From: Chloroflexota bacterium | Lineage (GTDB): Bacteria > Chloroflexota > Chloroflexia > JAMDCE01 | Length of the DNA stretch: 7,769 bases | Reading direction: 5' to 3' | NCBI GenBank assembly: GCA_023489135.1 | Contig: JAMDCE010000204.1 | Coordinates: forward strand, 1 to 7,769 | In this document: piece after piece, positions 1 through 7,769 of the stretch | How positions within the stretch are numbered: position 1 is the first letter of the stretch | Layout of the letters: every line of letters starts with the position of its first letter | Position numbers and translations under genes: made by a program | The notes under the pieces: generated by a model | Databases searched by the model: none | The model's input: the letters and a program-made list of their open reading frames with translations, nothing else | Told to the model about the DNA's origin: nothing

Positions 1-392
1 TCGTATGCACAGAGCTTCTCTTGCGTACGCTCGTCGGTCTTAGCCTCGTAGCCGTCGGACCTGAGGGCATTCTGGACCTCGTGCAGTACGTACAGCCTGA
101 GGTAATTGTTTAGGCGTCGCAGAGCGTACCTGGGCGAGAAGACGAATCCAGGCATCTGTCCCAACGGCACGGAGTCCTGCTCCGAACGTATGGTCCCGAC
201 GTAGGTATTGTTGGCCCAGGCCGGGTTGGGGACGGCGCAGACGATTACCGAGCGACAGCGATCCCAAAGGTCCAGGGGCCTGCGTCCGGGAATTCCGTGC
301 TCAAAGCCTACCCGAGGGTCGGCAACCTTCGCCTCGTAGGCTCCGGCGTGCTTGGCGCGAGCAATCAACGTGGTTTTCAGCGTATCCACCAT
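1..392 (-). CDS. Possible epoxyqueuosine-reductase-like (QueG/DUF1730-type) Fe-S protein, N-terminal 130 codons only
   Basis: An open frame of 130 codons begins with ATG at 392 and runs off the left edge of the window. The start is set by an AGGAGG Shine-Dalgarno (404-409) that lies inside the last codons of the upstream sulfur-carrier gene; the genes are 7 nt apart, so coupled translation is likely. The visible part has an N-terminal helix (TLIARAKHAGAYEAKVAD), a GFEHGIPGRRPLDLWDRC stretch and a hydrophobic strand, RSVIVCAVPNPAW. This resembles the 'pgarSVIV.a.PY' region of epoxyqueuosine reductases and related cobalamin/4Fe-4S proteins. The diagnostic cysteine clusters would lie C-terminal, beyond the window, so no Fe-S motif can be confirmed. 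As third gene of a SAM/Met-controlled operon it may be an electron-transfer or sulfur-handling partner rather than a tRNA-queuosine enzyme; that is inference. The open frame is secure, the family call is not. Confidence 0.5.
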   Translation of the reverse strand, partial: MVDTLKTTLIARAKHAGAYEAKVADPRVGFEHGIPGRRPLDLWDRCRSVIVCAVPNPAWANNTYVGTIRSEQDSVPLGQMPGFVFSPRYALRRLNNYLRLYVLHEVQNALRSDGYEAKTDERTQEKLCAY

Positions 393-399
393 CTGAGCA

Positions 400-675
400 T
401 CATCCTCCTGCGACTGCCGGGACGATAGATACGTCGCCGCCGTCATTTATGGTGGTGCCGAGTCCATCGATGAAACGGATGTCTTCCCCGCCGACGTAGA
501 TGTTCACAAACCGGCGAACCTCGCCGGTGTCGTCGCACAGACGCTCCTTGATGCCCGGGTAGGTTGCCTCAAGATTCTCGATAAGCTCGCTGATAGTCTT
601 TCCCTCCGCCGTTACCTCTTTGGCCCCCGCGGTCAGGTTTCTCAGTGGGGTGGGGATCTTTACGTTAGCTGCCAT
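400..675 (-). CDS. cysO: CysO-like (ThiS/MoaD family) ubiquitin-fold sulfur carrier protein
   Basis: A 91-residue beta-grasp sulfur carrier. Members are adenylated at a C-terminal Gly-Gly and converted to a thiocarboxylate that donates sulfide to a PLP enzyme. It begins MAANVKIPTPLRNLT, has the RRFVNIYVGGEDIRF core strand (about 55-69) and ends PAVAGG. From memory this matches Mycobacterium tuberculosis CysO closely: the start, a 'LEA.Y.GI.ERL' helix, 'RFVNIYV..EDVRF' and the PAVAGG tail. It is closer to CysO than to ordinary MoaD or ThiS. ATG at 675 is chosen because AGAAAGGA lies just upstream and the CysO homology begins there; an in-frame ATG at 816 would add 47 residues without homology. 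It sits 322 nt downstream of the ThrC-like gene, in the same direction. M. tuberculosis CysO feeds CysM for cysteine synthesis; here the nearby PLP enzyme is ThrC-like and the leader senses SAM and Met, so homocysteine is the more likely product. No activating (MoeB/ThiF-like) or Mec-type protease gene is in the window. Confidence 0.9.
   Translation of the reverse strand: MAANVKIPTPLRNLTAGAKEVTAEGKTISELIENLEATYPGIKERLCDDTGEVRRFVNIYVGGEDIRFIDGLGTTINDGGDVSIVPAVAGG
404..409 (-). promoter_or_regulatory. Shine-Dalgarno (AGGAGG) embedded in the end of the sulfur-carrier gene
   Basis: AGGAGG is formed by the last base of an Ala codon and the two terminal Gly codons (GGA GGA) of the CysO-like protein. 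It lies 11 nt before the ATG at 392 and decides the start of the downstream gene. Confidence 0.75.
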
Positions 676-997: not shown

Positions 998-2248
998 TTA
1001 GGAAACGCCCACGCTCACTCGTTTGTCGAATACCACTTCCTCGAACGAGGTGAGGGAGGGCTCGACGTAATAAGAAACGCCGACGGCTTCGGACACCGCC
1101 TCCTGCGTCTTGAGGCCGTTGCCGGTGATGCAGGCCACTACACACTCCTCGGGGCGAATCTTGCCCGCCAGGGCCAGTCTCTTCAGGGTGGCAACCGTTA
1201 CGCCGCCGGCCGTTTCGGTGAAGACGCCTTCGGTCTGGGCCAGCAGCTTGATTCCCTCGACGATCTCTTCCTCGGATACGGCCTCGATAGATCCGCCGCT
1301 GGATCTCACGGTTTTCAGGGTGTAGTATCCGTCGGCGGGATTGCCGATGGCGAGGGATTTGGCGATCGTGTTGGGCTTCCTCACCGGGCGGATGTTGAAG
1401 GTGTTGGCGGCGAAGGCAGCGGCCACCGGGGAGCAGCCGGCCGGCTGCGCTCCCGAGATGGTGGTCTTGGCCTGGTCGATTAGACCGACTTTGACCATCT
1501 CGTTGAGGCCTTTGCCGATCTTGGTGAGGAGGGAGCCGGAGCCGATGGGTATCACCACGTGGTCCGGCGCGCGCCAACCCAGCTGTTCGACTATCTCGAA
1601 GGCCATGCTCTTGGAGCCCTCGGCATAGTAGGGCCGGATGTTCACGTTCACGAAGGCCCAGCGATAGCGATCGGCGATCTCGCTGCAGAGGCGATTCAGC
1701 TCGTCGTATGTGCCGTGCACGGCCACGAGGTTGGCCCCGTAGATCGCCGCGTTCACTATCTTGCCGGCTTCGACGTCGGCCGGCAGGAACACGTAGGTGG
1801 TGATTCCGGCCTTGGCCCCGGCCGCGGCCACGGCGCTGGCGAGGTTGCCCGTGGAAGCGCAGGCCAGGGTGTCGTAGCCGAACTCCTTGGCCTTAGCCAG
1901 CGCTACCGCTACCACGCGGTCCTTGAAAGAAAACGTGGGGTTGACGCTGTCATTCTTGACGTAGAGGTTCTTGAGCCCCAGCTCGCGGCCCAGGTTATCC
2001 GCCTTGAGCAGGGGGGTAAACCCTATTCCCGGCGATGGATCCTCCCCTTGCTCGACGGGCAGGAGATCCTTGTAGCGCCACAGCGACAAGGGACCGGCGG
2101 CAATCTTCTCTCGGCTGACCAACGCGCGGATCTCGTCGTAATCGTAATCTACCTCCAGCGGCCCGAAGCAGAACTCACACACGTGAATCGGTGCCAGGTC
2201 GTAGGGCCTGCCACATTCGCGACACTTCAAAGCTTTAATTCGTCCCAT
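998..2248 (-). CDS. thrC: Threonine-synthase-family PLP enzyme with N-terminal zinc ribbon; probably a homocysteine-forming enzyme here
   Basis: A 416-residue fold-type II PLP enzyme. The N-terminal zinc ribbon has C9-x2-C12 and C24-x2-C27. The PLP lysine is K109 in PTFSFKDR, followed by the phosphate/substrate loop ASTGNLASA (131-139), a Gly-rich GSGSLL loop and TETAGGVT towards the C-terminus. The family normally converts O-phosphohomoserine to threonine. ATG at 2248 is chosen because GGAGGAGAG (2257-2265) precedes it and the ribbon begins at once; the upstream ATG at 2305 lies in the terminator hairpin. The leader carries a SAM-I riboswitch and a T-box with an AUG specifier, and a CysO-like sulfur carrier lies downstream. 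Both point to methionine rather than threonine supply. Cysteate synthase is an established ThrC-related enzyme that uses a sulfur nucleophile, so sulfur-dependent replacement on O-phosphohomoserine to give homocysteine is plausible. Family assignment is very secure; the alternative reaction is inference, and plain threonine synthase remains possible. Confidence 0.93.
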   Translation of the reverse strand: MGRIKALKCRECGRPYDLAPIHVCEFCFGPLEVDYDYDEIRALVSREKIAAGPLSLWRYKDLLPVEQGEDPSPGIGFTPLLKADNLGRELGLKNLYVKNDSVNPTFSFKDRVVAVALAKAKEFGYDTLACASTGNLASAVAAAGAKAGITTYVFLPADVEAGKIVNAAIYGANLVAVHGTYDELNRLCSEIADRYRWAFVNVNIRPYYAEGSKSMAFEIVEQLGWRAPDHVVIPIGSGSLLTKIGKGLNEMVKVGLIDQAKTTISGAQPAGCSPVAAAFAANTFNIRPVRKPNTIAKSLAIGNPADGYYTLKTVRSSGGSIEAVSEEEIVEGIKLLAQTEGVFTETAGGVTVATLKRLALAGKIRPEECVVACITGNGLKTQEAVSEAVGVSYYVEPSLTSFEEVVFDKRVSVGVS

Positions 2249-2287: not shown

Positions 2288-2326
2288 AAACAAAAAGCCT
2301 CTCATTCCCCTTTAGGGACGAGAGGC
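2288..2326 (-). terminator. T-box intrinsic terminator
   Basis: GCCTCTC (2320-2326) pairs with GAGAGGC (2297-2303). An inner CCCT/GGGG pairing extends the stem, and TTTTTGTTT (2288-2296) follows. Bases TCTC of the left arm are also needed for the antiterminator, so the two structures exclude each other. Confidence 0.95.
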
Positions 2327-2604
2327 CAATTCTCGTGGTACCACCCTAGTTCGCCGCCGGCTCGCGCCCGCGACCTTTTCGAGTACGGCCCCGAAGTTGA
2401 AGTTGGTCCAACGCCGACCTGCTTCCCAGCCACTTCTCTCCCGCGGTCCTCGATTGCCGTCTTGGCTGCTGCCGGGAGGCTCCATCGCGTGGCATCAACG
2501 GGGGCGATACTCCGGCCCGGTAACGGGGGCCAATTGTCTCTGTGAGACGCCGGCTCAGCCTACTGGAGCGGTAAGCACCGCCGTTCAGCCTGCAGCTCCG
2601 AGGT

Positions 2605-2607
2605 CAT
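2605..2607 (-). promoter_or_regulatory. T-box specifier triplet AUG (Met)
   Basis: This triplet is followed by A and then by the 3' strand CCTC of the Stem I lower helix, as in canonical specifier loops. A one-base register shift gives AAU (Asn). The only threonine codon nearby, ACC, overlaps the paired CCTC and would break the helix. The SAM-I element upstream independently supports Met. Confidence 0.75.
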
Positions 2608-2746
2608 TTTCGGTGGGTTTTCGGGTTCCGCCTCTCACCTGTCGCGGTTCTCTGTAGCCGTTCTGCCCACCTACTCGTCCTCTTCATCGCCGTTAGCGAT
2701 ATTGGGTTCGGTTTGACGGTTTGGTGTATAGCCCTACTAAATGAAT

Positions 2747-2768
2747 ACCCCTCATCTGCACGAGGGGT
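2747..2768 (-). terminator. SAM-I riboswitch terminator
   Basis: ACCCCTC (2762-2768) pairs with GAGGGGT (2747-2753) around an 8-nt loop, followed by ATTCATTT, a rather weak U-tract. Its left arm CCCCT (2763-2767) can pair instead with AGGGG (2783-2787), which overlaps the 3' strand of riboswitch helix P1. That is the expected antiterminator: SAM stabilises P1 and frees the terminator. Confidence 0.8.
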
Positions 2769-2784
2769 TGCGTTATCTGCGTCC

Positions 2785-2887
2785 CCTTATCTTGCAGAAT
2801 CACTTCTGCCGGAATTGGCACCAAGCGGGAGAAACCGCTGGTTGCCGGGCTTCGTCGGGCCGTCTCCCTCCACCTCTCTTGATAAGG
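2785..2887 (-). ncRNA. SAM-I (S-box) riboswitch aptamer
   Basis: All helices of the S-adenosylmethionine class I aptamer are visible. P1 pairs CCTTATC (2881-2887) with GATAAGG (2785-2791). The conserved AGAGAGGTGGAGGGA segment follows P1. The P2/kink-turn and pseudoknot region contains GGCCCGACGAAGCCCGGCAACC-type consensus. P3 pairs AGCGG with CCGCT. GGTGCCAATTCC is the conserved J3/4 segment. P4 is GCAGAA-GTGA-TTCTGC (2794-2809). It lies between the operon promoter and the T-box and would repress the operon by terminating transcription at 2747-2768 when SAM is abundant. S-boxes control methionine, cysteine and SAM synthesis or uptake genes, so this is direct evidence about the operon's physiological role. 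Confidence 0.97.
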
Positions 2888-3031: not shown

Positions 3032-3352
3032 CTACGGCGCTTTCCCGCGCGCATAATAAATCAGGAGGACAAACACCTGGCGCGCCTCGCGATTCACGCG
3101 AAAGACGACCTGGAAGTCCGGCGGACCTAGCACGAGCAAGTGGCGCGTGCCTTTGTAGCGGGGATGTGTTTGTGGCATAAGCAGCCACGCCTCCGGCCAG
3201 AAGGAAAGGTTCTTGTGGACCCTATGCTCGATGCGCTGTCGCTGCTTTTCGGGCAAGTTATCCAGAAAGTAACTTGCGTGATCCGACCAGAAAATGCGGT
3301 AGCTCTCCTCTGATGGGATTTCCTCGCTGCTCCAATCGCTGGAATCGTTCAC
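3032..3352 (-). CDS. RelE/ParE-superfamily toxin (probable)
   Basis: A 106-residue protein one nucleotide after the antitoxin stop. It starts with GTG at 3352, with AAGGAG 10 nt upstream inside the antitoxin gene. After an acidic N-terminal stretch of about 16 residues (MNDSSDWSSEEIPSEE), it has the helix-rich first half (FLDNLPEKQRQRIEHRVHKN) and the terminal beta strands DFQVVFRVNREARQVFVLLIYYARG typical of RelE/ParE-type mRNA interferases or gyrase poisons. The family is inferred from size, fold pattern and the Phd/YefM-type partner. Which subfamily, and therefore the target (ribosomal mRNA or gyrase), cannot be told. The acidic N-terminal extension is unusual for the family and an internal start is possible, though no better ribosome site was seen. 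Confidence 0.7.
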   Translation of the reverse strand: MNDSSDWSSEEIPSEESYRIFWSDHASYFLDNLPEKQRQRIEHRVHKNLSFWPEAWLLMPQTHPRYKGTRHLLVLGPPDFQVVFRVNREARQVFVLLIYYARGKAP

Positions 3353-3353
3353 G

Positions 3354-3626
3354 CTACGGTCGCTCCTTGTAGCGACCAGCCGCGACGTCAGCCTCGAAGT
3401 TGTCTAGAAGACGGTCAAGGACCTGACGTGCCTCAGGATCCTCAAGTAAACGTTGGATCGTTTCACGATTCCTCTGCTCGTGCAGAGCAACGTATTCCTC
3501 GTAGCTCACGATAACCACAGCGGGTTTGCCCTGCTTCGTCACTATAATAGCCTCATCACCATACTGCGCACGCGCAATGACATCGCCGAAGTTATCGCGG
3601 GCTTCCCTTGCACTCACACGCACCAT
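3354..3626 (-). CDS. Phd/YefM-family antitoxin
   Basis: A 90-residue protein. Its N-terminal half, MVRVSAREARDNFGDVIARAQ followed by EAIIVTKQGKPAVVIVSYEEYVAL, is the Phd/YefM DNA-binding fold. The C-terminal part, about residues 52-90 (RETIQRLLEDPEARQVLDRLLDNFE), is the amphipathic toxin-neutralising tail. ATG at 3626 has GAGGTAAG 7 nt upstream. The gene overlaps its promoter's output closely and is cotranscribed with the toxin gene that follows after one base. Phd/YefM proteins bind palindromes in their own promoters; a 6+6 inverted repeat lies between the -35 and -10 boxes just upstream (3664-3682), which fits autorepression. Confidence 0.93.
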   Translation of the reverse strand: MVRVSAREARDNFGDVIARAQYGDEAIIVTKQGKPAVVIVSYEEYVALHEQRNRETIQRLLEDPEARQVLDRLLDNFEADVAAGRYKERP

Positions 3627-3835: not shown

Positions 3836-3860
3836 AGGACGTGTTGTGGGAGGGGTGCTG

Positions 3861-5684
3861 GTGGAAGGAATTGTGGCTGTTCTCCCCATCTTGATCCTTT
3901 GCACCGGCCTGGTGTGGCTCCTGGGGCTGAAGAGGCTGGCCGCCGGAGCTTTCTCGGCTCCGGTTTCTCTTTTCGCGGCCGGGCTGGCCTTCGTCTCCGT
4001 GCTGTATGGGTATTATCTGGCGCGCCTGCAACCGTTGGAGTTCGAGTTAACGGATTGGGCCCCCATTCCCGGACAACAGGCGTCTCTGCTGTACCGGGTT
4101 GATTCCTGGTCCTCCCTCTTCGGCGGGCTGGCGCTAGCCGCCGTCCTGGCGGCTCTGCTCTTACGAACCAGGATTATTCTGGCCTTCCCCCATCGCAAGA
4201 CCTGGACTGATGTCTACTTGCTGGCCCTGGCGGCGGTCTTCACCCACCTGGTGTTCTCGGCCAGCGCCATTCTTATCGTCGCCAGCTGGATTTGTCTGGG
4301 ACTGGTCGCCTGCGCCGGCTCGGTCTCCTCCGCGCAGCAGCCGGAAGAACGGGAGGGTGCTTACCAGATCCTTTGGATGACCTGCCTGTCCGGCAGCGCT
4401 CTGGTCGTCGCCGCAATCACCCTGAGAACCGGAAGCGGATGGTGGCTCGGCGATCTCAACGCCGGCACCGTCGGCCTGCCCACGTTCTTGCTGCTCCTCG
4501 TGGCGCTGGTAGCCTACTCCGGCCAGTTCCCCCTGCATCGCTGGGCGACCGACCTGGGAAGCGTTCCGTCCACGTTTGCGGCCAGCTCCAGTATTCTAAC
4601 CGGCGTGGCATCCATCTACTTGCTGGGAAGGCTCCGCGCCATAATCGATCCGGGCGCCAACCCCGGCTTCGCTGCCATCTTGATCGCGATTGGATTGATC
4701 TCGATCGCCTACGGGAACGTGTCTGCCTGGGTCGAATCCGATTTCAAGCGGCTGCTGCGCCATCTGACGATGATCGAGCTGGGCTTTGCCTTTGTGGCCT
4801 TCGGCTTAGGGAGCCCGACTGCCCTAGCGGCCGCCGCACTGATAGTTCTCAACCTCGTTCTGTCCGGAGGATCGGTCGCGTTCCACGTCCTGGAGCTGAG
4901 GAGCAGAGGGGTCGCCGGCGAGACGTCCCCCGTGTCGAGAAGCCCGTTGGAGCTGTTGCTATCACTGCTCGCTCTGGCGTCGCTGGCCGGCGCGCCACCG
5001 CTGCTGGGCTTCTTCGCCAGGTGGATTCTGTACAACGCGGCGGTGGAGAAGGGCCTGGGCGCGGTCGCTTCGATAGGATTCCTGGTTAGCGCTCTGTCGA
5101 TTGTCCCGGCGTTCAAGTGGGCCGACCAGCTCCTGTTTAGCCGGTCTGACCTTGGATGGAAACACTCGGAGTCGCACAGCATCCTGTCGTTGTCGGCGGT
5201 GGCCCTGCTGCAGGTGCCGGGCCTGGCGTTGGGTCTGCTCCCCTGGCCTGCGCTGCGGCACGTGGTGTTGCCTGCTCTATCCGCCACGTATGGTTTCGGG
5301 ATATCGCTTCCCACCTCTCCGATAAACGGCCTGCCTACATTGGTCCAGGTAGTGACCGCGCTGGCGGTGGTGATCCCGTTTGGCATAGCGGCAAAACTGT
5401 ACCCACTTCCTCTTGGCCGCTTACGCTTGAGCTCGACCGAGAGGATCGATCAGCACAGCAGGCCGCGCGAGCGCTTCTACGAAGGGATCCGCGTGGCATT
5501 GGAGATGGGGGCCGAGTCGGTTCACAGGATGTTCAATCCGGAATACTGGTTGTGGTTTCTCGGAAGGACCATCGACTGGATGGGGACGACGCTGCACAGA
5601 CTGTCGGAGCACGTGCAGGAGCAGTACTACTTTCCGGCGCTGCTACTGCTGGGAATCGGAGTGGTGTTTGTTTTTCTGGATTGA
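3861..5684 (+). CDS. NuoL/HyfB/HyfD-like antiporter-type membrane subunit (divergent)
   Basis: A 607-residue polytopic membrane protein of the Complex I/Mrp antiporter-like superfamily, similar in length to NuoL (about 613). The core domain (about 120-415) includes FPLHRW (223-228), ESDFKRLLRH (292-301, the family's 'DxKRLLAYS' in TM8) and LAGAPPLLGFFARW. A long C-terminal part ends in an amphipathic region and a last membrane helix, as in NuoL-type subunits. GTG at 3861 is preferred because GGGAGGGG (3848-3855) precedes it and the promoter predicts transcription from about 3830; GTG at 3846, 3855 and 3873 are alternatives. Oddities: TM5 reads ASWICLG where the family has 'WE', so the essential glutamate is missing. 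The TM6 lysine is not evident, and 'PTPVSALIHA' has become PSTFAASSSI. The TM8 lysine is kept. Ion pumping may be altered or lost. First gene of a three-gene module. Confidence 0.85.
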   Translation: MEGIVAVLPILILCTGLVWLLGLKRLAAGAFSAPVSLFAAGLAFVSVLYGYYLARLQPLEFELTDWAPIPGQQASLLYRVDSWSSLFGGLALAAVLAALLLRTRIILAFPHRKTWTDVYLLALAAVFTHLVFSASAILIVASWICLGLVACAGSVSSAQQPEEREGAYQILWMTCLSGSALVVAAITLRTGSGWWLGDLNAGTVGLPTFLLLLVALVAYSGQFPLHRWATDLGSVPSTFAASSSILTGVASIYLLGRLRAIIDPGANPGFAAILIAIGLISIAYGNVSAWVESDFKRLLRHLTMIELGFAFVAFGLGSPTALAAAALIVLNLVLSGGSVAFHVLELRSRGVAGETSPVSRSPLELLLSLLALASLAGAPPLLGFFARWILYNAAVEKGLGAVASIGFLVSALSIVPAFKWADQLLFSRSDLGWKHSESHSILSLSAVALLQVPGLALGLLPWPALRHVVLPALSATYGFGISLPTSPINGLPTLVQVVTALAVVIPFGIAAKLYPLPLGRLRLSSTERIDQHSRPRERFYEGIRVALEMGAESVHRMFNPEYWLWFLGRTIDWMGTTLHRLSEHVQEQYYFPALLLLGIGVVFVFLD

Positions 5685-5700
5685 TGGATAGAATAGAAAA

Positions 5701-6351
5701 ATGGAGATCGTTACCCCGGCCCTCATAGTCTTGATTACAGGCTCGCTTATTGTATCTCGGTCCAGGCTGATCGCTGCGCTTTCGATTGGCGCCGATTATG
5801 TCCTGGTGGGGCTCCTCCTATGGCAAGGAGTAAGCCACTCCATCAGCCTGGCTTATGCGATCACGGGACTTACCGCCGGCGCGATTATTTGTCTGTATGG
5901 GTCCGCGCCGCTGCTAGCGTTCCGGCGGGTCGAGATCGCGGGGCCCGCTCCGGCTGCCAAGTTTGATAAGAATGCTTATGCCGGCTCACCGCCGATGGGC
6001 TGGGTGTTCGTCACGACCACTTTGGTGCTGTGCATGGTCGTGGCCTTCGGTCTCTCGTCTACCTATCCCCTGGGAGAGGAGATGCGGGCCAGCTATTGGG
6101 AGAGCTTCGTGTCGTATTGGCTGATTATCTCGGGCTTGCTGGCGGCGGCGGTAACCCGAAATCCGCTCAGGTCCGGCTCGGGACTGTTGCTCCTCATATG
6201 CGGAGTCAGCTTGTCCTACGTCTTGGTCTCCGATGCTTATGGTGTTGTCAACGCCATCGGCTTGTTGCTCGTCGGCATTTTTGCCGCTCTGATAATTGGC
6301 CGGCTTTCGCTCGATCGGCGCGAAGAGGCGTCGCCAGAAGTTCGCGGCTAG
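5701..6351 (+). CDS. HyfE-like small integral-membrane subunit (tentative)
   Basis: A 216-residue protein with about seven predicted membrane segments (near 4-20, 26-42, 49-67, 100-118, 134-150, 158-176 and 183-202) and a charged C-terminal tail. The region RNPLRSGSGLLLLICGVSLSYVL (153-175) resembles the NuoK/MrpC-like half of HyfE, and the length equals that of E. coli HyfE (216 residues). Its position between two antiporter-like subunits matches hyfD-hyfE-hyfF. It starts 16 nt after the upstream stop. The ATG at 5701 lacks a strong Shine-Dalgarno, so it may depend on translation of the previous gene. Sequence similarity to HyfE is weak to the eye and the call rests largely on length, topology and context. 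Confidence 0.55.
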   Translation: MEIVTPALIVLITGSLIVSRSRLIAALSIGADYVLVGLLLWQGVSHSISLAYAITGLTAGAIICLYGSAPLLAFRRVEIAGPAPAAKFDKNAYAGSPPMGWVFVTTTLVLCMVVAFGLSSTYPLGEEMRASYWESFVSYWLIISGLLAAAVTRNPLRSGSGLLLLICGVSLSYVLVSDAYGVVNAIGLLLVGIFAALIIGRLSLDRREEASPEVRG

Positions 6352-6369
6352 CAGGTAGAGTGTTTACAT

Positions 6370-7769
6370 ATGTTGGGTTATGTGCTCCTTTCTATTGTCC
6401 CGCTCACGGCGTCGGTGGCCCAAGGTTACCGGAAGCTGCGCGCTCTCGGGCCGTTGATGGCCCTGGCGGCTCTGGCCATAGCCTTTGCAGCAGCGGCCAG
6501 GACATCGTCTTCTGTCGAAGTTTCCGAGGTTCAGCTTAGCTTTGAGCCGCTATCACGTCTGGCTTTCACCGCGTTCCTTATGCTGGCGGCCCTGGGCATG
6601 GTGTACGGCTGGCTCGCAGGTGAAGGCGAGAGGGTGCTCATGATGGGCCTGGCGATCACCGGGTTCCTGGGCCTCACCTTTTCGCTGTCGAGGGATTTGC
6701 TTTCGGCGGGCCTGGCCTTTGAGCTCGCCGCGCTCGCAGGAGCGCTGGCCATAGGCGCTCGTGCCGCGGATAGAGACGCCCGAAGCGCCACCATGCGCTA
6801 CCTGTCATACGTGGTAACGGCAGGGATGTGCCTGGTGGGCGCTTTTTCGTTGGCCACGAGGTTTGAGGTATCGCGCGACCCGACCTTACAGCGTTTGACC
6901 TTCGGGTTGCTGTCGGTCTTTGTGCTCGTGGTGCTTGGGGTGTTCCCTTTCAACCTCTGGTTTCCCAAGATGGCCCGGCGGGGGGATCTGATGGCCGGCT
7001 CTCTCATGGCGTCGGCGTTGGCGATTGGCGGCGCATGGCTTTTCCTGCAAAGCTATGGCAGCTTGCCGTGGCTCTCCACGGACCCTGCCGCCATTCGGGC
7101 GTTGCTGGGCGTGGCCACTTTGGGAACGGTGGGGGCTTCCCTTATGGCGGCGGCATCCCGGCGCCTGGATCATCTCATAGCTTATTCGGCTGCTTCCAAT
7201 GCCGGGACGATCCTGGTTGGAATAGTTTCGGCGACCTCCCTGGGCCTGGTCGGCGGCATGTTTAGCCTGCTCAATTACCTCTGGGCGTTGCTGCTGGTGC
7301 ACATGTGTCTCGACATTTCCGGACGGGTTCGCTCTGACGGCAATTTTGAGGCCAACCTTCGACGAACCCCTTCCGTAATCCTGGGGCTTACCATCGGAGG
7401 GCTGGCGCTGGCCGGTGCCCCCCCGGCGGCCGGTTTTGCCGGGCGGTGGATGATCTACGAAGCCATTGCCGGCTATTCGGGCTACCTGGTCTTCTTTCAC
7501 GTCGTCTCAAGCGCGCTGGTTTTCCTGGGTTACGCCCGTTTTCTTAAGGGCGCCTGGCTGAATCCGGAGCCCCGCCCCTCCCTGGTTGAAAAGGGGGTTG
7601 AGGAATCGGTTCGGCAGCCTGCGTCGGACCTATGGGAACGATCACCAGGGGGCGAAGAACTAGAGGACGAACCGACGGCGCTGTCTGCCATAGTGATACT
7701 TCTGGCAGTCGTGATACTGGTGGTTGGCGTATATCCGACTCCGATCCTGGAAGCCCTAGCAGGAGCGCT
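6370..7769 (+). CDS. NuoN/NuoM/HyfF-like antiporter-type membrane subunit, 3' end beyond window
   Basis: An open frame of 466 codons from ATG 6370 with no stop before the window edge. The start follows the previous stop by 18 nt, with a weak AGGTAGAG as ribosome site. Family features: AFELAALAG (117-124) keeps the TM5 glutamate (E118); MRYL (142-145) has Arg where the family usually has a TM6 Lys; FPFNLWFP (192-199) matches 'FPFHxWLP' with His replaced by Asn; LDHLIAYSAASNAG (266-279) matches 'DLKRLLAYSS..G' but lacks the TM8 lysine; LAGAPPAAGFAGRW (347-360) is the conserved TM11 region. A hydrophilic acidic stretch (about 399-436) precedes another membrane helix. NuoN-like subunits are about 480-520 residues, so only the last tens of residues are missing. 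Downstream hydrogenase or Complex I genes would be expected beyond 7769. Confidence 0.85.
   Translation, partial: MLGYVLLSIVPLTASVAQGYRKLRALGPLMALAALAIAFAAAARTSSSVEVSEVQLSFEPLSRLAFTAFLMLAALGMVYGWLAGEGERVLMMGLAITGFLGLTFSLSRDLLSAGLAFELAALAGALAIGARAADRDARSATMRYLSYVVTAGMCLVGAFSLATRFEVSRDPTLQRLTFGLLSVFVLVVLGVFPFNLWFPKMARRGDLMAGSLMASALAIGGAWLFLQSYGSLPWLSTDPAAIRALLGVATLGTVGASLMAAASRRLDHLIAYSAASNAGTILVGIVSATSLGLVGGMFSLLNYLWALLLVHMCLDISGRVRSDGNFEANLRRTPSVILGLTIGGLALAGAPPAAGFAGRWMIYEAIAGYSGYLVFFHVVSSALVFLGYARFLKGAWLNPEPRPSLVEKGVEESVRQPASDLWERSPGGEELEDEPTALSAIVILLAVVILVVGVYPTPILEALAGA

Follow-up and report, generated by a model that had tools for sequence, protein, structure and literature searches.

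A gene annotated as a threonine synthase (positions 998-2248, minus strand) lies in a 7,769-nt stretch of DNA from a Chloroflexota bacterium, which we refer to as the window, downstream of a leader that features one RNA switch for SAM and another for tRNA. An earlier note on this DNA regarded S-box control of a thrC-family gene as unexpected, which raises the question of what the gene encodes and what the two switches would sense. The leader is approximately 650 nt in length and contains two attenuation-type switches in series on the minus strand, 5' of the gene (2248-998), with the SAM-I riboswitch first and the T-box second. Both elements, their order, the hairpin terminator that follows each of them and their coordinates had been proposed in the earlier note, and all were confirmed here, with the qualifications that the first terminator has a poor U-tract and that the T-box scores below the gathering cut-off of its family.

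An Infernal scan of the whole window matched the SAM-I (S-box) aptamer at 2888-2784 (minus strand) to the full RF00162 model (1-108) with 82.9 bits, which exceeds the gathering cut-off of 44.4 bits (E 5.5e-19), and every position that is invariant across 19 aligned SAM-I aptamers is retained. The first terminator consists of a hairpin at 2768-2747 (minus strand; -15.8 kcal/mol) with a tail that extends to 2737 and contains the imperfect U-tract UAUUCAUUUAG; because this U-tract is poor, the SAM gate may leak. The segment 2788-2763 (minus strand) is a possible anti-terminator, in which the 3' strand of P1 (AAGGGG, 2788-2783) could compete for the CCCCU of the terminator (2767-2763), as in the usual anti-terminator design. 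By eye, the same complementarity between P1 and the inter-switch terminator is clear in four relatives with a tandem leader (L089, L107, L110 and L118), as in the window, and we did not find it in the other two (L105 and L108), where the terminator itself is not clear.

We also examined where transcription of the leader might begin. A promoter-like site on the minus strand at 2941-2913 (TTGACA-17-TAAACT, 10 of 12 matches) is the only such site that the scan located on this strand of the leader. Because the whole window contains three promoter-like sites compared with 1.7 expected by chance, the site is weak by itself. It gains weight because all seven tandem leaders (two of them near-identical) share its placement: each has a TTGACA site with a spacing of 16 or 17 and 9-10 of 12 matches that ends 24-25 bases 5' of the aptamer, whereas the best site between the SAM element and the T-box reaches only 6-7 of 12. 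This pattern is consistent with the single promoter ahead of both switches that had been proposed, and the sequence gives no sign of transcripts that start between them. On the plus strand, a terminator-like hairpin at 2934-2956 overlaps the -35 end of the promoter-like site.

The second switch is a T-box leader at 2696-2311 (minus strand), which extends from Stem I to the antiterminator and matches RF00230 over its full length (1-219 of 219). Its score of 68.7 bits was obtained in a local search of 781 bases (E 1.1e-14) and lies below the gathering cut-off of 93 bits, and a standard Rfam scan does not list it; our guess is that the low score reflects the long insert that precedes the T-box motif. 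All of the canonical parts are present, and their arrangement is conserved among relatives. Beyond Stem I, these comprise a specifier region at 2611-2604 (GAA-A-AUG-A), within which AUG, the codon for Met, occupies 2607-2605; a T-box motif, AGGGUGGUACCACG, at 2347-2334; and a second terminator, identified by eye as a hairpin followed by UUUUU at 2327-2292 (all minus strand). The bulge UGGU within the motif (2343-2340) presumably fits a tRNA with discriminator A by the pairing rule. T-boxes precede the same gene in eight relatives with scores of 65.8-102.9 bits, two of which exceed the cut-off. In an RNAalifold prediction from eight leaders, 25 of the 66 pairs show changes on both sides, and the predicted fold is only partly that of a canonical T-box.

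The specifier is AUG in all eight aligned T-boxes that precede this gene (the window and L089, L091, L105, L107, L108, L110 and L118); it was called by pattern in the window and six of the relatives, and from the alignment in L107, where AUG is followed by G. A further T-box, that of L002, has AUG followed by C, as judged by eye. Another T-box of L091 provides a useful control, since it has an ACC specifier and stands 5' of a gene with threonyl-tRNA-synthetase-type domains; in this region (712-1036 of L091, minus strand), a tRNA-Val gene lies directly 5' of that ACC (Thr) T-box. We considered whether the T-box of the window is a chance match and rejected this possibility because AUG-specifier T-boxes stand at the same gene in seven relatives. 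The ligand is likely tRNA-Met, in agreement with the earlier note. However, AUG alone is no proof of the ligand, since a change of the Met specifier left tRNA binding unaltered in Staphylococcus aureus, according to passages of PMC3771891.

The earlier note had suggested a search of genomes for the same tandem arrangement, and it was found in six Chloroflexota relatives. We looked for the enzyme in 400 genomes from the phylum of G002, a Dehalococcoidia MAG, and scanned the 30 best loci with Rfam; 25 of them have SAM-I over the cut-off 5' of the gene. Four of the tandem leaders (L089, L107, L110 and L118) combine a T-box with SAM-I over the cut-off (76.2-84.9 bits), and the remaining two, L105 and L108, which are near-identical loci, have a weak SAM element below it (37.9 and 30.4 bits). 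All six have T-boxes of 65.8-91.6 bits, under the cut-off of 93; those that pass the cut-off before a metM-like gene, as we refer to the gene for reasons given below, belong only to L091 (98.9 bits), where the T-box stands alone, and L002, and neither locus has a SAM match. Among the other loci, L106 has neither element, L113 has merely about 160 bases of upstream DNA, and L081 and L082 gave no match in the Rfam run. The long gaps that follow SAM-I in L092-L096 showed no hidden T-box in the Rfam run. In four of these loci with SAM-I and no T-box match (L092, L093, L095 and L096), an apparent small ORF that ends in approximately GGLPRMPxCG was seen by eye between SAM-I and the gene. The SAM-I/metM-like gene adjoins a 16S rRNA gene divergently in 10 of the 30 loci (L099-L103, L111, L112, L114, L115 and L117), and L105 contains a second T-box (3199-3625, plus strand; 104.3 bits) downstream of the enzyme and carrier genes. 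A second set of 80 loci was scanned with our own SAM model and a T-box motif pattern, with Rfam run on six of them, and 34 of the 80 have SAM-I within 210 bases upstream (E up to 0.016). The set of SAM-I, metM-like gene and metO-like gene was also found in Acidimicrobiaceae and Acidimicrobiales MAGs.

The gene encodes a PLP enzyme of 416 residues with an N-terminal CxxC..CxxC arrangement. The window enzyme scores 285.9 bits with TIGR00260 (cut-off 167.1) and 302.2 bits with PRK08197 (cut-off 303), both of which are named threonine synthase; among the window and five relatives scanned, TIGR00260 was passed by six of six and PRK08197 by three of six. The substrate pocket differs from that of canonical ThrC at all four positions compared: N203, R205, Y208 and S237 of the window enzyme correspond to S155, N157, R160 and N188 of Thermus thermophilus ThrC, with the Thermus numbering counted from an alignment with solved threonine synthases. 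We take S155, R160 and N188 to bind the substrate phosphate, and our literature search found no printed roles for the Thermus pocket residues. Across 110 distinct aligned family members, the window included, N203 is kept in 109, R205 and Y208 are kept in all 110, and position 237 is S in 99 and G in 11. In contrast, all 25 ThrC paralogs examined (22 from 30 host genomes and three from G001-G003) have the canonical residue at each of the four positions.

A described system fits this enzyme. According to passages of PMC12172450, Hasebe et al. 2024 found MetM, a novel homocysteine synthase in Streptomyces; its gene is accompanied by metO, which encodes a sulfur carrier, and is preceded by a SAM riboswitch. 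An enzyme from Nonomuraea gerenzanensis is 53.8% identical to that of the window with all 13 checked residues the same, and it belongs to a locus with SAM-I (68.7 bits), the MetM-like gene and a MetO-like carrier that ends in Gly-Gly (on a record of 11.85 Mb labelled as a plasmid). Because PMC12172450 describes MetM/MetO and Nonomuraea has the same set, we filed the window pair as MetM/MetO-like, by description. On these comparisons, the gene most likely encodes a homocysteine synthase of the methionine pathway that acts with a sulfur-carrier partner. The view that S-box control of this gene is unexpected was therefore abandoned, because the gene is of a MetM-like family with an altered ThrC pocket, the sulfur carrier is adjacent, and SAM-I stands 5' of it in many lineages.

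The putative partner is a MetO-like ThiS/MoaD sulfur carrier at 400-675 (minus strand; 91 residues, PF02597, C-terminal Gly-Gly). A ThiS/MoaD-like gene lies downstream on the same strand within 800 bases in the window and in 76 of the 80 loci; the four exceptions are L004, where the contig ends, L048, L076, where it lies 1.4 kb away, and L079. Among 107 related carriers (L082 repeats L033), 51 end in Gly-Gly, 47 have 1-8 more residues, eight have a longer tail and one lacks the motif. Five of the eight long-tailed carriers are NIL-like fusions, in which, by similarity, the carrier reads through into a NIL-like stretch (L007, L021, L025, L049 and L076); these fusions suggest methionine-sensing control of the carrier. 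A NIL domain occurs within 500 bases downstream in 41 of the 80 loci and anywhere on the same strand in 59, and the neighbourhoods also contain E1-like ThiF (30 of 80), JAB peptidase (30 of 80) and CysM-like (33 of 80) genes, families that, together with NIL, were confirmed on example loci. Tailed carriers occur in 29 of 30 loci with a JAB gene versus 20 of 46 without one, a comparison that ignores kinship and in which many JAB loci are from Nitrospirota. In L154, a GHMP-kinase gene, by our reading homoserine-kinase-like, follows the enzyme and carrier genes, and L153 has homoserine dehydrogenase and GHMP-kinase genes nearby.

Within the window, the metM-like and metO-like genes are separated by a gap of 322 bases that contains a 34-nt inverted repeat (848-963, 74% complementary), which might separate the transcripts of the two genes. 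By eye, similar repeats occur in the gaps that follow SAM-I in L092-L096. A third ORF (3-446, minus strand; start at 446 or 392) is cut by the end of the window and belongs to no family; we found no relative of it, nor a match in the eight neighbourhoods examined. With no support from relatives or neighbourhoods, it was set aside as an operon partner, and its membership in the operon is doubtful. Upstream of the leader, 3032-3626 (minus strand) is possibly a toxin-antitoxin pair, composed of a Phd/YefM-type antitoxin (3354-3626) and then a 106-residue ORF without a Pfam or NCBIfam match. Transcribed away from the leader, 3846-7767 (plus strand) encodes two membrane subunits of the proton-antiporter (Nuo/Mrp) type, which flank a further ORF (5701-6351).

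We also surveyed the methionine pathway of the genomes that host the metM-like gene. A further ThrC-family gene over the cut-off was found in 29 of 30 host genomes (barely in G208 and G262) and not in G152. MetA (PF04204) was detected in none of the 30 host genomes versus 8 of 14 controls, and HcyBio (PF01837) in none of the 30 versus 3 of 14. MetX (TIGR01392) exceeded its 500-bit cut-off in none of the 30 host genomes and none of the 14 controls; its match was strong in one host genome (446 bits) and weak in 17 more (18 of 30 at E 0.001 or better). PF02574, the homocysteine-methyltransferase-type domain that is found in MetH, was present in 27 of 30 host genomes at E 1e-10. Matches to the MetB/MetC/MetY/MetZ family (PF01053) exceeded the 27-bit cut-off of that model in 28 of the 30 host genomes; because weak PF01053 matches occur everywhere, we counted it at E 1e-20 or better, and the weak PF01053 and MetX matches are taken as other enzymes. 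At this level, PF01053 was found in 6 of the 30 host genomes and, in a second set, in 9 of the 30 genomes that have the gene as against 47 of the 50 that lack it. Pooled, these are 15 of 60 genomes with a metM-like gene versus 47 of 50 without (Fisher p 5e-14, with kinship ignored). The 50 genomes were those in which, among the matches listed, the best match was weaker than 1e-100; six genomes with weak matches only (G004, G027, G032, G060, G066 and G070) and later table rows were left out, and in the second set with the gene, G016 replaced G311, which is cut at a contig end. Most of these genomes are probably MAGs, so that gene absences may be assembly gaps.

These results bear on what the enzyme makes. 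The gene could encode a true or bifunctional threonine synthase, for which control by SAM and Met would balance the O-phosphohomoserine branch point, and the TIGR00260 score well over its cut-off (285.9 versus 167.1 bits) is in its favor, as is the threonine synthase activity reported for a Microcystis MetM relative. According to passages of PMC12172450, that homolog is 51.6% identical to MetM of Streptomyces albulus, makes threonine in vitro and seems to fall short of full MetM function in cells. We consider a threonine synthase quite unlikely, since 29 of the 30 genomes already hold a further ThrC-family gene, the pocket residues are kept in all 25 canonical copies and swapped in the metM-like family, and a sulfur-carrier partner is present; by reasoning, repression by SAM and Met supply also better suits a methionine enzyme. 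Alternatively, the enzyme might make cysteine from O-phosphoserine instead of homocysteine, like CysM with CysO in Mycobacterium tuberculosis. Thiocarboxylates serve cysteine synthesis in that species (passages of PMC6225789), operons of ThiS, JAB and cysteine synthase have been described (passages of PMC1779556), and a CysM-like gene occurs in the cluster in 33 of the 80 loci. However, loci that already have a separate CysM-like gene would seem to have no need of another cysteine synthase, the sensing of SAM and Met-tRNA points to methionine, homoserine dehydrogenase and GHMP-kinase genes are close by in L153 and a GHMP-kinase gene in L154, and the rarity of PF01053 would leave homocysteine unexplained, which together make a cysteine enzyme very unlikely.

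A different concern is whether both switches matter. In the genome of the window, the T-box alone may be relevant and the SAM switch may be decaying. L105 and L108, with their sub-threshold SAM scores, give the impression of such a loss, and the poor U-tract of the first terminator would fit such decay. Against this view, which we regard as unlikely, the aptamer of the window reaches 82.9 bits and keeps the positions invariant in the 19 aligned aptamers, and the pairing between terminator and anti-terminator is kept. We conclude that a tandem SAM-I/Met T-box attenuator very probably controls the genes for a MetM-type homocysteine synthase and a MetO-type carrier.

From the known mechanisms of these switches, we infer the following two-input reading. 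Binding of SAM to the SAM-I aptamer would stabilize P1 and permit the first terminator to form, whereas at low SAM, transcription would pass the first terminator and the T-box would meet tRNA-Met. Charged tRNA-Met would allow the second terminator to form, and only uncharged tRNA would stabilize the antiterminator. Because the two terminators would act in series, the operon would be fully read only when SAM and charged tRNA-Met are both short, with read-through into the synthase and carrier genes, which would be co-transcribed across the 322-base gap. With the gene being a likely homocysteine synthase, the odd-looking pairing of switches and gene would therefore be a sensible double control of methionine synthesis.

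Other tandem leaders and thiocarboxylate pathways provide points of comparison. A tandem of SAM and cobalamin riboswitches precedes metE. In Wolinella, the PLP enzyme of the thiocarboxylate methionine pathway is reportedly MetY, which has another fold type, whereas the PLP enzyme of the window is a ThrC relative. The predicted use of a protein thiocarboxylate for methionine is a likeness to that pathway (Krishnamoorthy and Begley 2011), for which such use is stated in passages of PMC6225789. The closest enzyme system is that of S. albulus, with a ThrC-like homocysteine synthase that acts on O-phosphohomoserine, metO and an upstream SAM riboswitch (passages of PMC12172450); the window differs in that a Met-specific T-box follows SAM-I, in its Chloroflexota origin and in that its activity is predicted. 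Because that paper reports MetM/MetO, the enzyme pathway is not new, and a claim to that effect was dropped. Tandem heterogeneous leaders have been described as two-input gates, including T-box SAM pairs on ssuABC (8%) in Bacillota (passages of Morales and Merino 2025, PMC12452182). The window leader resembles these in having two complete switches in series and differs in its order, with SAM ahead of the T-box, and in its target, metM/metO, whereas thrC appears in the passages of that source only with T-box T-box. The T-box also resembles that of the S. aureus met leader, which has an overlapping terminator and an AUG specifier, precedes methionine synthesis genes and prefers the initiator tRNA; that leader has a T-box instead of an S-box, whereas the window has both (passages of PMC3771891). 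In the literature that we searched, which consisted of open-licence papers and partly of passages, we found no report of SAM-I and a Met T-box before a metM-like gene. Thus, the enzyme system is known, and the combination of SAM-I and Met T-box before it appears to be a new regulatory variant that is real, recurrent and largely explained.

The locus would provide a natural two-input attenuator for SAM and tRNA-Met, the logic of which is testable in one tube. The passing of TIGR00260 by six of six enzymes, and of PRK08197 by three of six, suggests that behind many genes labelled threonine synthase there is a methionine enzyme. The metM-like gene and the MetB/MetY family come close to excluding each other (15 of 60 versus 47 of 50), which bears on a published gap, in that passages of Price et al. 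2018 (PMC5764234) state that at least one homocysteine pathway is still undiscovered, with Acidimicrobium ferrooxidans among the examples; MetM/MetO could be part of the pathway noted as missing for Acidimicrobium and others. More tentatively, MetM/MetO may serve several uncultured phyla as a main route to homocysteine, one that is often misannotated and would replace the MetB/MetY family. In several Chloroflexota, its operon would be read through an AND gate that senses SAM together with uncharged tRNA-Met, possibly the initiator tRNA, and NIL-domain partners and the processing of tailed carriers by JAB peptidases would add further layers of control.
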